Source: Terriglobales bacterium (lineage in GTDB: Bacteria; Acidobacteriota; Terriglobia; Terriglobales; Acidobacteriaceae). From it: a stretch of DNA of 64,000 bases. The translations under genes and the position numbers were made by a program. Below are positions 11,833-15,343 of this stretch, in pieces. Each line of letters begins with the position of its first letter. Within the stretch, counting starts at the first letter, position 1. The notes below the pieces were generated by a model. The model was not told the origin of the DNA. It saw nothing but the letters and a program-made list of their open reading frames with translations, and searched no databases. The DNA is taken from positions 1 through 64,000 of the forward strand of contig JAOAPE010000014.1 of NCBI GenBank assembly GCA_025462725.1. Direction: 5' to 3'.

Positions 11833-12948
11833 TTAAGCGATCCAACCACCGCCGACAACGTCATCACCGTCGTAGAAGACGGCCGCTTGTCCCGGAGTGA
11901 CTGCCCTTTGCGGCTCATCGAATGTGACGAGCACCGTGTCATCTGTTTCCATTTGAATTGTTGCCGCTGCAGGCTCGTGGCGATGTCGAATCTTCGCTTC
12001 GACGCGCATCGGCGCCTCTAGGCTCTCGATGGCAATCCAATTAAGGCGCTTCACTCGCATCGACTGCGTATAGAGCTCTTCCCCGCCACCAACGACGACC
12101 TGCTTCTTGTCGCCCTTGATCTCCAGCACGTAAAGTGGAGATCCGGTTGCGACGCCAAGTCCCTTGCGCTGTCCGACGGTGAAGTTGTGAATTCCGCCAT
12201 GCTGGCCCACGACTTCCCCAGATGTAGTGACCAGGTCGCCGGAGGTGTCCGGCAACTGCTCGCCTTGCTCGTGCAAATATGCGTCAATGAACTGCTTGTA
12301 GTTCCCACCGGGAACGAAGCAAATTTCCTGGGAGTCAGGCTTGTCGGCGAGGATGTTCAGTCCATGCTGACGAGCGCTTTCTCGGACATCCGGCTTGCGC
12401 ATCTCGCCCAATGGAAAACGCGTGCGGCTCAACTGCTCTTGTGTGAGTCCAAAGAGGAAATACGTTTGGTCCTTCGAGCGGTCAGCGGGACGCTTCAGTA
12501 TCCAGCGATTTCGCGCCGGGTCAAAGTGGTTGCGGGCGTAGTGTCCGGTGGCAATGAGGTCAGCGCCAATCTGTCTGGCCACAACAAGAAGCTGGTCAAA
12601 CTTCAAGTGATTGTTGCACAGGCTGCAAGGGATCGGTGTGCGTCCGGAAAGGTATTCGCTTACGAACGGACGCACGACATCCTTCTCGAATCGGTCCTGA
12701 TGATTGACGACGTAGTAGGGGATCTCCAGCGTTTCGGCGACGCGGCGCGCGTCATAGACGTCGTCCAGCGAACAGCAGCGGCCCTCGCGATTCTCGGCCA
12801 TTCCCGGCTGGTCAGCGAGACGACGCTGGTTCCAAAGCTGCATGGTGAGTCCAACGAGCTTGTGCCCTTCATCGCGCAGCATGGCCGCGACGGTCGAAGA
12901 ATCGACACCGCCCGACATGGCTACGGCAATGGTCTGTTGCTCAGACAT
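11833..12948 (-). CDS. mnmA: tRNA-specific 2-thiouridylase MnmA
   Basis: A 371-residue enzyme that forms 2-thiouridine at the wobble position of Lys, Glu and Gln tRNAs. The PP-loop AMSGGVDSSTVAAM at the N-terminus binds ATP. The catalytic cysteines appear in TPIPCSLCNNHLKF and DSQEICFVPGG, and the central GLGVATGSPLYV segment matches the family. Length is standard. The gene lies 17 bases downstream of a cysteine desulfurase gene in the same direction, which would supply the persulfide sulfur, so the pair is a tRNA-thiolation operon. Confidence 0.95.
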   Translation of the reverse strand: MSEQQTIAVAMSGGVDSSTVAAMLRDEGHKLVGLTMQLWNQRRLADQPGMAENREGRCCSLDDVYDARRVAETLEIPYYVVNHQDRFEKDVVRPFVSEYLSGRTPIPCSLCNNHLKFDQLLVVARQIGADLIATGHYARNHFDPARNRWILKRPADRSKDQTYFLFGLTQEQLSRTRFPLGEMRKPDVRESARQHGLNILADKPDSQEICFVPGGNYKQFIDAYLHEQGEQLPDTSGDLVTTSGEVVGQHGGIHNFTVGQRKGLGVATGSPLYVLEIKGDKKQVVVGGGEELYTQSMRVKRLNWIAIESLEAPMRVEAKIRHRHEPAAATIQMETDDTVLVTFDEPQRAVTPGQAAVFYDGDDVVGGGWIA

Positions 12949-12965
12949 ATTGATTTTGCTGGCGA

Positions 12966-14135
12966 TTACTGGAGGACAGCCGCTTTCTTATTATAGACGG
13001 GGCTCAGCTCGCGCAGCCGTGCGACCGTTTCCGGCAGGATAGAGAGCGCGAAATCGATATCCGCTTCAGTGTTGTGCTTGCCGAGGCTGAATCGGATGCT
13101 TGAGCGCGCTTGGTCGGCGGGGAGTCCCATGGCGGTGAGCACGTGCGACGGTTCAATCGCTCCGGATGAGCATGCAGCGCCGGTCGAGACGGCGAGTCCC
13201 TTCAGGTCGAGAGCAATGATCAGCGCCTCACCTTCTATGTGGTCGATGTGAATGTTAGTGGTATTGGGAACACGAGGAGCGTTGTCGCCGTTTACACCGG
13301 CGTCATCAATCGCGACGAGAATTCCTGTTTGAAGTCGGTTGCGCATGGCCGAGATCTTCTCGACTGTTCCGTTCGCGAACGAATCCATGGCGAGTTCCGC
13401 GGCCTTACCCAATCCAACAATGCCGGGCAGATTCTCCGTTCCCGCGCGACGCTGTCTCTCATGATTTCCGCCGAAGAGCATCGGTTGGAGCAGAGTTCCC
13501 TTGCGCACGTATAGAGCGCCAGTCCCCTGCGGTGCATGCATCTTGTGTCCGGAGATGGAGAGCAAGTCACAGCCGATCTTCTGGACGTCGATTGCGACCT
13601 TGCCTGCCGCCTGAACCGCGTCAGTGTGGAAGTAGATCGCTGCTTCGTGCGCGATGCGTCCGATCTCTTCGACCGGTTGCAGAACTCCGATCTCATTGTT
13701 CGCCATCATGATGCTGATGAGCTTCGTGTTCGGGCGAATTGCGGAACGGATCAACTCGGGATCGACAATCCCGCGGGAATCAACATCGACGTATGTCACT
13801 TCAGATCCGCGCTCTTCGAGAACCTTGCACGCGTTTAATACTGCATGATGCTCGATCGTCGAAGTGATGACGTGGTCGCCGGGGTTTACGATTCCGAAGA
13901 CGCCTAGATTGTCACTCTCTGTACCGCCACTGGTGAAGACAACCTCAGCCGCGCGGCATCCGAGCAATTTCGCAACGGACTCGCGAGCATGCTCAACTGC
14001 AGAACGGGCTTGCTGTCCATAATGGTGAATGGAAGAAGCGTTCCCGAAATGCTCCAGAAAAAACGGACGCATCGCCTCCAGTACTTCCGGGAGTACCGGT
14101 GTGGTGGCGTTGCTGTCCATGTAAACCCGCTGCAT
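12966..14135 (-). CDS. Cysteine desulfurase, NifS/IscS class
   Basis: A 389-residue PLP enzyme that removes sulfur from cysteine as a persulfide. The N-terminal VYMDSNATTPVLPEV is typical. The PLP lysine lies in SISGHKMHAPQGTGALY near residue 206, and the persulfide cysteine in STGAACSSGAIEPSHVL. The histidine motif TSTIEHHAVLN is also present. No IscU or other iron-sulfur scaffold gene is adjacent. The downstream mnmA suggests delivery of sulfur to tRNA. It is transcribed divergently from the phhA leader region. Confidence 0.93.
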   Translation of the reverse strand: MQRVYMDSNATTPVLPEVLEAMRPFFLEHFGNASSIHHYGQQARSAVEHARESVAKLLGCRAAEVVFTSGGTESDNLGVFGIVNPGDHVITSTIEHHAVLNACKVLEERGSEVTYVDVDSRGIVDPELIRSAIRPNTKLISIMMANNEIGVLQPVEEIGRIAHEAAIYFHTDAVQAAGKVAIDVQKIGCDLLSISGHKMHAPQGTGALYVRKGTLLQPMLFGGNHERQRRAGTENLPGIVGLGKAAELAMDSFANGTVEKISAMRNRLQTGILVAIDDAGVNGDNAPRVPNTTNIHIDHIEGEALIIALDLKGLAVSTGAACSSGAIEPSHVLTAMGLPADQARSSIRFSLGKHNTEADIDFALSILPETVARLRELSPVYNKKAAVLQ

Positions 14136-14179: not shown

Positions 14180-14209
14180 TTGACATTGGCAGGCGACTTC
14201 GCGGATACT
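14180..14209 (+). promoter_or_regulatory. Candidate sigma-70 promoter of the phhA leader
   Basis: TTGACA (14180-14185) and GATACT (14204-14209) are separated by 18 bases. The predicted start is about 14216, at the A of the leader peptide ATG, so the leader mRNA may be leaderless. No SD-like sequence precedes that ATG, which fits. Confidence 0.6.
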
Positions 14210-14215
14210 CCCTTC

Positions 14216-14293
14216 ATGCGCTTCACCGCAACCTACGCCTATTATTACTACGCGACCCGAGACACGGGACGTGTGTGGAGGCGTATGCGCTAG
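14216..14293 (+). CDS. Tyrosine-rich leader peptide of phhA
   Basis: A 25-codon reading frame starting ATG CGC TTC and ending TAG. It contains five Tyr codons, four of them consecutive (TAT TAT TAC TAC, 14240-14251), plus one Phe and one Trp. Such a run of the codon for the product of the downstream enzyme is the mark of an attenuation leader peptide. The stop codon is 24 bases before the terminator stem. The predicted promoter would start transcription at the ATG itself. The peptide is too short to be found by ordinary gene calling. Its translation is inferred from codon content and RNA layout, not shown. Confidence 0.7.
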   Translation: MRFTATYAYYYYATRDTGRVWRRMR

Positions 14294-14328
14294 GCGCGCA
14301 GACAAATCAAATCACAAACGGCCCGTGA
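14251..14328 (+). promoter_or_regulatory. Attenuator: alternative 1:2 and 2:3 pairings upstream of phhA
   Basis: Segment 1 (14251-14259) can pair with segment 2 (14265-14273) just after the Tyr codons. Segment 2 (14263-14272) can instead pair with the 5' arm of the terminator (14318-14327): CACGGGACGT against ACGGCCCGTG, nine of ten positions. A ribosome stalled on the Tyr codons would cover segment 1, free segment 2 and block terminator formation. A ribosome reaching the stop codon would cover segment 2 and allow termination. Inferred by hand pairing. Confidence 0.65.
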
Positions 14329-14351
14329 GAAATCACGGGCCGTTTTCTTTT
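14317..14351 (+). terminator. Intrinsic terminator of the phhA attenuator
   Basis: A perfect 12-base stem, AACGGCCCGTGA with TCACGGGCCGTT, closes on a GAAA loop and runs into TTTTCTTTT. The phhA ribosome binding site GGAG and ATG follow at once, so the terminator can only act on phhA. Confidence 0.85.
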
Positions 14352-14361
14352 GGAGCCAACA

Positions 14362-15114
14362 ATGATTGAAGCAGTCACGAACGAATCCGAAGCATTTATT
14401 GAGCAGCGATGGGACGACTACCTGCCCGAGCAACACCAGATATGGAGCCTGCTCTTCTCGCGTCGCATGGCACAGCTGCGGGAAACTGGGAGCAACGTTT
14501 TTTGCGAAGGCATTGAGCGAATCGGCCTGGTCGCGGACCGTGTGCCGGATCTCGAGCTGGTCAACGCCCGACTGGAAGCATTGACCGGATGGCGCGCCGT
14601 CCCAGTCAGTGGATTTCTTGATCCTAAGCTGTTCTTCAAGTGCCTATCGCAGCGTCGATTCCCTACCACGGTAATCGTGCGCACCCGTGAGCAGTTGGAC
14701 TACCTGCCCGAACCGGACATCTTTCACGATGTCTTCGGCCACGTGCCGTTACACAGTGACCCTATATTCGCAGATTTTCTGCAGCGATTCGGCGTAGTGG
14801 CTGCATCAGCCGAGACAGAAGAAGAGGTGTCGCTCCTCACGCGTCTGTTCTGGTTCACAGTGGAATTCGGACTAATCGAGGAAAATGGCATCACAAAAGT
14901 CTATGGCAGCGGGCTGATCTCTTCGGCAGCGGATTGCGCCAAGGCCCTGGGTCCGAATTGCGAGCGGCGTCCGTTCTCGCTGGATGCCGTTTTCAAGCAG
15001 GATTTTGAAGTGGACAAGCTTCAGCCGGTGCTCTTCGTGGTGAAGTCATTCAACCAGCTGTTTGAGGCTGTAGAGGAGGCACAAAGTACGTTTCGCAAAG
15101 CTGCCCTACGATGA
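14362..15114 (+). CDS. phhA: Phenylalanine-4-hydroxylase
   Basis: A 250-residue monomeric-type aromatic amino acid hydroxylase that converts phenylalanine to tyrosine using iron and tetrahydropterin. The iron ligands are in IFHDVFGHVPLHSDP, with a third carboxylate expected in FWFTVEFGLIEENG. The N-terminal WRAVPVSGFLDPKLFF and LPEPDIFHD match the bacterial family, and no regulatory ACT domain is present, as usual. The start is ATG 14362 with GGAG six bases upstream, rather than the TTG inside the terminator. Tyrosine-linked attenuation is predicted from the leader. No pterin recycling gene is adjacent. Confidence 0.95.
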   Translation: MIEAVTNESEAFIEQRWDDYLPEQHQIWSLLFSRRMAQLRETGSNVFCEGIERIGLVADRVPDLELVNARLEALTGWRAVPVSGFLDPKLFFKCLSQRRFPTTVIVRTREQLDYLPEPDIFHDVFGHVPLHSDPIFADFLQRFGVVAASAETEEEVSLLTRLFWFTVEFGLIEENGITKVYGSGLISSAADCAKALGPNCERRPFSLDAVFKQDFEVDKLQPVLFVVKSFNQLFEAVEEAQSTFRKAALR

Positions 15115-15151: not shown

Positions 15152-15343
15152 ATGGCAAATCCAAAAGATCCCTGGGGCGGAACTGGCGCGCGTGAAGCTT
15201 ACGTGGAACCGCAACGTGCAAAAGCCGTAAAACCGAAATCCAGCGTTGATTTTGTAGGAGTGATCAAGACGCTTGTCCTTATTGGGGTGCTGTTGTTCGC
15301 GGCGAAGTACGCGTACACCAATTACTATCTGCCGTCACACTAG
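15152..15343 (+). CDS. Small single-pass membrane protein
   Basis: A 63-residue protein with a polar N-terminal half (MANPKDPWGGTGAREAYVEP) and one transmembrane helix (about 34-52, VGVIKTLVLIGVLLFAAKYAY). It lies 37 bases after phhA in the same direction. No family was recognised; similar small helices occur in Acidobacteriota. Codon use and the anchored layout favour a real gene. Confidence 0.6.
   Translation: MANPKDPWGGTGAREAYVEPQRAKAVKPKSSVDFVGVIKTLVLIGVLLFAAKYAYTNYYLPSH

Follow-up and report, generated by a model that had tools for sequence, protein, structure and literature searches.

The phhA gene of a Terriglobales genome is preceded by a short Tyr-rich reading frame and an intrinsic terminator, which together very probably form a classical ribosome-mediated attenuator of a tyrosine-making hydroxylase that would sense charged tRNA-Tyr. 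The frame with its codons, three competing pairings and their partial conservation, and the gene content of the leader-bearing genomes are observed in the sequence and its folding. The mechanism is the known one of trpL and pheL, and a biosynthetic role of phenylalanine hydroxylase (PAH) is also known; the case is of interest for its target, for recurring in two phyla and for its association with a missing TyrA. A preliminary description of the region had read it as tyrosine attenuation, and this reading is supported by the conserved Tyr run and competing pairings and by the recurrence in Bacteroidota.

Organization of the phhA leader

The window, by which we mean the whole 64,000-nucleotide stretch of DNA that was analysed, holds at 14180–14365 a promoter-like site, a frame of 25 codons, the pairings 1:2, 2:3 and 3:4, a terminator and phhA. 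The elements, with the basis of each assignment, are as follows.

14180–14209, + strand: sigma-70-like promoter, TTGACA from 14180, spacer of 18, GATACT up to 14209 (10 of 12 consensus matches; boxes present in relatives)
14216–14293, + strand: leader ORF MRFTATYAYYYYATRDTGRVWRRMR*, no Shine–Dalgarno (SD) sequence seen (frame reading; homologues in relatives)
14234–14251, + strand: regulatory codons Tyr-Ala-Tyr-Tyr-Tyr-Tyr, TAC GCC TAT TAT TAC TAC (frame reading)
14218–14297, + strand: hairpin 1:2, core 14250–14259 with 14265–14274 (folding)
14263–14277, + strand: segment 2, antiterminator 5′ arm, partner 14313–14327 (complementarity and folding)
14313–14328, + strand: segment 3, antiterminator 3′ arm and terminator 5′ arm (helix comparison and folding)
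14316–14351, + strand: intrinsic terminator 3:4, 13-pair stem, GAAA loop, T tract 14343–14351 (folding and terminator scan)
14352–14355, + strand: phhA ribosome site GGAG, abutting the T tract (sequence)
14362–15114, + strand: phhA, phenylalanine 4-monooxygenase, 250 aa, with HDVFGH (NCBIfam NF008877)

The order of promoter-like site, leader, terminator and phhA given in the preliminary description is right at base level, as is its 25-codon peptide with four consecutive Tyr codons, which lie at 14240–14251. Its perfect 12-base terminator does stand directly before the phhA ribosome site, but the stem has 13 pairs (14316–14328 with 14333–14345). The leader frame contains five Tyr in all and has its stop codon at 14291. 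Its ATG at 14216 lies 6 nt past the –10 box, with no SD sequence upstream. Start sites generally lie some seven bases downstream of a –10 box. Because a start at that distance coincides with the A of the ATG, the frame is probably leaderless, that is, translated from the first transcribed base of a start site predicted from the –10 box.

The promoter score alone is at chance level (one site found, 0.8 expected from shuffles), and terminator-like sites are also common in shuffled sequence (three found, 1.7 expected). TTGAC-type and ATACT-type boxes are retained in close relatives, and the spacer between them has diverged. The phhA product, read from the ATG at 14362, scores 303 bits against NCBIfam NF008877 (cut-off 247). 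The upstream neighbour of the leader, a cysteine desulfurase gene at 12966–14135, points the opposite way to phhA, so a terminator of the neighbouring gene was rejected; among the window ORFs upstream, no likely + strand gene ends at the terminator. A T-box or other catalogued RNA was rejected after a search of Rfam 15 at the gathering score, in which the window leader and 20 phhA loci gave no match and the only matches in the window were two tRNAs. The divergent cysteine desulfurase and mnmA (tRNA 2-thiouridylation) genes that adjoin phhA span 11833–14135, and a 63-aa ORF that includes a hydrophobic stretch and matches no NCBIfam family lies behind phhA at 15152–15343.

Alternative structures and the proposed switch

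The RNA from 14216 to 14356 folds at –64.3 kcal/mol (z –6.26), and none of 200 shuffles folds equally well. Folding of shorter stretches recovers a different structure for each translational state. The stretch 14216–14313, for untranslated RNA, folds as hairpin 1:2 (–38.0 kcal/mol); 14262–14330, for a ribosome on the Tyr codons, folds as 2:3 (14263–14277 with 14313–14327, 13 pairs, –27.4 kcal/mol); and 14306–14352, for a ribosome at the stop codon, folds as the terminator (–24.9 kcal/mol). The hairpin, the alternative pairing and the terminator postulated in the preliminary description were thus each obtained, and by folding and complementarity the three are mutually exclusive, with thin covariation. 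The 2:3 complementarity of the window leader has a p of 0.003, the minimum attainable with 300 shuffles. With all RNA from 14262 free the lowest fold retains the terminator, and antitermination must therefore be kinetic, taking place during transcription.

In the proposed switch, transcription would start at or beside the leader ATG, with a ribosome trailing the polymerase. When tyrosine is plentiful, the ribosome would translate past the Tyr codons, reach the stop at 14291 and cover segment 2, so that 3:4 would form and terminate transcription before phhA. When tyrosine is short, the ribosome would stall at the Tyr codons and mask segment 1, segment 2 would pair with segment 3 and phhA would be transcribed; PhhA would then convert phenylalanine into tyrosine. 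With no translation, 1:2 would form and the terminator would persist. Segment 2 begins 13 nt downstream of the final Tyr codon's first base, a position at which a stalled ribosome, given the usual size of its footprint, would mask segment 1 and leave segment 2 free. We infer stalling, termination and the direction of the response from this arrangement.

Conservation in related genomes

PhhA relatives with at least 60% identity among the loci are L002 and L011 (one genome), L003, L004, L005, L012 and L040, all of which have both a leader with Tyr codons and a terminator before phhA. In five related genomes this leader is homologous to that of the window, and in a sixth (L005) it has diverged. 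PhhA identity of the leader-bearing relatives is 85% for L002 and L003, 69% for L004, 68% for L005, 65% for L012 and 60% for L040. In the window, L002, L003 and L004, the sequence from the leader ATG to the T tract is nearly identical and the promoter spacers are different; the Tyr-Ala-Tyr-Tyr-Tyr-Tyr codon block is common to all four, and the peptide hardly varies among four close Acidobacteriota genomes. The L012 leader, MNLMHSYYAYYYASDAGRGWRPMR, has five Tyr, and that of L040, from another family of the phylum, has two (MRFDLRTYAYTVTHPGRVSVRPSS). The leader of L005, a record titled Gemmatimonadetes MAG, reads ...SSYYRSYRIL... and is not alignable to the others; in it CGGGAGC is segment 2 and GCTCCCG is segment 3 (pairing p 0.003).

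Over the related leaders all 60 cells of the terminator stem are paired, with two pairs altered on both sides, in L012 and L040. The 2:3 helix of the six Acidobacteriota leaders has one doubly changed pair and one broken cell (L040), and 27 of 500 shuffles reach its score. Hairpin 1:2 keeps its core in the relatives, but L012 and L040 have lost its outer pairs, which gives the consensus fold of all six leaders an unfavourable covariation term of +2.39. The alignment that the preliminary description had suggested as a check therefore finds the Tyr codon run and the competing pairings kept, and the covariation of segments 1–3 that it had named as support is thin over six sequences, with the outer part of 1:2 broken in L012 and L040.

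Recurrence of Tyr leaders before phhA

We defined a Tyr leader as a frame of 10–45 codons in which some stretch of six codons includes three Tyr, with a terminator no more than 110 bases away. Forty-six of 265 phhA upstreams fit this rule (45 without one false case, L061, which was dropped), 39 of them in Bacteroidota; these are not population rates, because the genomes were drawn around two starting species. By set, the rule found 44 of 128 upstreams in the first and 2 of 137 in the further one, compared with 0.2 per set in shuffles of the first. Two leaders, L040 (two Tyr) and L057 (bulged stem), were counted by eye only, and in L046 and L052 the script picked a frame other than the evident leader. 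An equal rule for other residues found Leu next commonest in the 128 upstreams (20), followed by Ser (14). Shuffling also destroys terminators, so the upstreams of ORFs are the better control. Among 454 upstreams of ORFs of at least 120 aa in the loci, 28 fit the rule, all before phhA (27 labelled by the script, L125 by eye) and none before another long ORF; among 69 window upstreams of ORFs of at least 150 aa, the single case was the phhA leader.

The antiterminator was assessed in 44 leaders (43 rule-based plus L040) by pairing the stretch after the Tyr codons with the terminator 5′ arm, against 300 dinucleotide shuffles each. The 2:3 pairing had p < 0.05 in 28 of the 44 (median 0.03), related leaders not being independent. 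In the other 16 it was no better than in shuffles, including L012 (p 0.45), L040 (0.28), L044, L045, L073, L137 and L138. Counted from the first base of the final Tyr codon, segment 2 begins 12–19 nt downstream in 37 of the 44; smaller spacings were unobservable because the search began at 9 nt.

In Bacteroidota the arrangement appeared among the first nine loci, in L008 (Crocinitomicaceae), where MMKTNTYCTYSYFQMETN and a terminator precede phhA. In the order of L008, phhA occurs in 62 of 249 genomes at 63 places, and 24 of the 63 upstreams fit the rule, with L057 added by eye. In its class, phhA occurs in 46 of 295 genomes; two of the 46 places had already been covered, and 15 of the remaining 44 fit. 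The Bacteroidota leaders are unrelated in sequence to those of Acidobacteriota. A box resembling TAnnTTTG, which we take to be the Bacteroidota promoter motif, lies at most 14 bases before the frame start codon in 28 of 37 Bacteroidota leaders and exactly four bases before it in 13, in a search that allowed variants, used no shuffles and counts a few matches placed before an internal or different start codon. L101 (G982:C17), a phhA match interrupted by three stop codons, retains MLLKTSTSYYYSSH and a terminator upstream, and is perhaps a decaying gene or a product of assembly errors.

In its own order, the leader is rare. phhA is present in 151 of 397 genomes, and the upstreams of all 150 listed places were taken (30 loci and 120 more): three carry the leader (G000, G287 and G212), 145 have none by the rule, and two (L155 and L197) end at a contig edge, too short for judgement. 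A covariance model built from six leaders gave five matches of 87–165 bits in 348 genomes of the family, the next being 41.9 bits; it would miss diverged forms such as L005. Matches above 80 bits occur at one place each in G000, G287 (equal in its places to G397), G212, G1015 (the genome of L004) and G1017 (the genome of L003). A leader before other genes was rejected for matches above 80 bits in the 348 family genomes, all of which stand before phhA; of the weaker matches, 15 were fetched, and these hold no phhA. The upstreams of L007 and L009, from genomes without TyrA, were examined and have no convincing leader.

In a PhhA tree of 96 rows, 37 of them with a leader, the leader trait requires at least eight changes, compared with 29.7 when labels are shuffled; starred branches force four of these changes, and 40 of 92 inner branches are open. 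Leaders of Acidobacteriota and Bacteroidota occupy separate parts of this tree. Together with their unrelated sequences, this fits separate origins in the two phyla; the leader may instead have been lost from an old common state.

Gene content of leader-bearing genomes

There are seven distinct leader-bearing genomes of Acidobacteriota type (G000, G287, G398, G399, G400, G212 and G466). TyrA (PF02153 alone) is over the cut-off in none of them, whereas 39 of the 41 others tested from the order have it over the cut-off (22 of the 23 that carry phhA, each read upstream and leaderless, and all 17 that lack it, G374 being counted apart); Fisher tests on gene content ignore kinship. G398 has one TyrA match under the cut-off. 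In G000, which is rated 100% complete, PF02153 gave no match, and the same search matched 14 of 14 control genomes; the control of a later TyrA search was 13 of 14, with Sulfolobus missed. G374, of the window's genus and 71% complete, has no match for TyrA, prephenate dehydratase or phhA. Homogentisate dioxygenase, hmgA (TIGR01015), is over the cut-off in none of the seven leader genomes, in 9 of 11 with leaderless phhA and in none of five without phhA; G400 has a broken 46-bit match. At two places, G062:C7 and G044:C28, leaderless phhA has hmgA as its immediate neighbour on the same strand, an arrangement like that of a catabolic operon.

In the leader lineage, PhhA therefore stands where TyrA was not found and no homogentisate route was seen. 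Because no TyrA-type enzyme (prephenate/arogenate dehydrogenase) was found in the window genome, its gene content suggests that PhhA is probably the main source of tyrosine there, and the flux to tyrosine would then run through phenylalanine. The absence of TyrA and hmgA matches also supports the tyrosine-making role that the preliminary description had given the enzyme. Prephenate dehydratase (PF00800) was found in two of the seven (G287 and G398) and in all 16 other tested genomes of the order, G374 apart. A PF00800 search of G000 gave no match, and chorismate synthase is present there, as in all 43 genomes; pterin dehydratase was found in 35 of 37. Some leader genomes, G000 included, may need outside phenylalanine because neither TyrA nor prephenate dehydratase was found in them; for G000 a need for phenylalanine, or another dehydratase, is possible.

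Of 79 Flavobacteriales genomes, 62 carrying phhA and 17 lacking it, 6 have TyrA over the cut-off, five of them weakly; because TyrA is rare there either way, it is uninformative on the leader. Loss of TyrA as a general correlate of the leader thus holds in the Acidobacteriota set and is not discriminating in Flavobacteriales. The one strong TyrA case, G779, also has MILSPTYYYSPLPIGFMQ and a terminator before phhA (L076), and either has two tyrosine routes or an attenuator older than TyrA loss. Most tested Flavobacteriales have no TyrA or prephenate dehydratase match yet have chorismate synthase, even those lacking phhA. In all eight leader-bearing Flavobacteriales tested, a pterin dehydratase gene of the same strand is found no more than 800 nt from phhA, and in six no more than about 110 nt from it.

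Discussion

Could the region be a plain intrinsic terminator beside a frame that is Tyr-rich by chance, which ends another transcript or lowers phhA expression with no sensing? The ordinary promoter score and the frequency of terminator-like sites in shuffles would fit, but the upstream gene runs the other way, no likely + strand gene ends here and the hairpin sits between the leader and the phhA ribosome site. In two phyla phhA is repeatedly preceded by a Tyr run together with the hairpin and segment 2, and among the 454 and 69 upstreams none of the cases that fit the rule lies before a different gene. We regard this explanation as highly improbable. In a different scheme, the nascent Tyr-rich peptide itself would arrest the ribosome with tyrosine or phenylalanine as ligand, as the TnaC peptide does with tryptophan, and phhA would answer excess and not shortage. 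Arrest would need identical parts, and the near-invariance of the peptide in the four close genomes agrees with it. Across all leaders, however, only the Tyr run is common; the flanking residues differ, which fits codon sensing, the peptides are unrelated across phyla, and most leaders keep a similar distance between the last Tyr codon and segment 2. We consider peptide arrest very unlikely.

The leader might also work as described here while PhhA serves phenylalanine catabolism, the attenuator merely tuning it to tyrosine. Weak hmgA-like matches (56–77 bits, under the cut-off) do occur in 13 of 13 tested Flavobacteriales, regardless of leader or phhA. Against a catabolic role, hmgA and TyrA are not over the cut-off in the Acidobacteriota-type leader genomes, where the only hmgA trace is the broken one of G400, and a response to product shortage suits a biosynthetic enzyme. 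A catabolic PhhA under such control is unlikely, and attenuation of a tyrosine-making enzyme is the reading that we carry forward.

Like the enteric trpL and pheL leaders of the Yanofsky type, the phhA leader combines a short frame rich in codons for the end product with exclusive pairings and a terminator before the gene; it differs in having Tyr-only regulatory codons, a hydroxylase as target and a seemingly leaderless frame. Attenuation has reportedly been surveyed comparatively by Seliverstov, Lopatovskaya and Vitreschak. In the parts of the open literature searched, attenuation of phenylalanine hydroxylase, or an attenuator with Tyr codons only, was not found, and earlier reports are possible. 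The nearest to the latter among the passages available is the AroR leader of Corynebacterium glutamicum aroF, whose peptide is likewise aromatic and includes a Tyr codon (Phe-Tyr-Phe) ahead of a gene of the aromatic pathway; it answers limitation of phenylalanine and not tyrosine, and its target is DAHP synthase (PMC11802643). Mostly leaderless frames followed by hairpins are likewise described in Streptomyces lividans, where the eight cases in the available part of the report concern Leu (two), Trp (two), Ala, Ile, Met and Thr, with none for Tyr (PMC8079986). Putative attenuators have also been predicted in tyrosine synthesis, but before tyrA operons and not phhA, which the accessible passages discuss as catabolic and under PhhR (PMC1173090).

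The gene for a bacterial PAH gives little indication of whether the enzyme serves tyrosine synthesis or phenylalanine breakdown. According to the passages available, a biosynthetic PAH has been established by genetics in a few species, Dyella japonica, Legionella pneumophila and Echinicola vietnamensis, two of which are without TyrA; tyrosine is made there through phenylalanine hydroxylase as proposed here, and those passages mention no attenuator (PMC7311316). We give about even chances to the broader proposal that Tyr attenuation through leaderless frames is a hallmark of biosynthetic PAH in lineages of at least two phyla that form tyrosine from phenylalanine as animals do, with several independent origins, that catabolic phhA is without it, and that some of these organisms may need outside phenylalanine. 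If the attenuator operates as proposed, Tyr-only codons and a hydroxylase would join the list of attenuated systems, and tyrosine supply by hydroxylation would be under product control through tRNA-Tyr. A short upstream sequence signature could then separate biosynthetic from catabolic PAH in many genomes.
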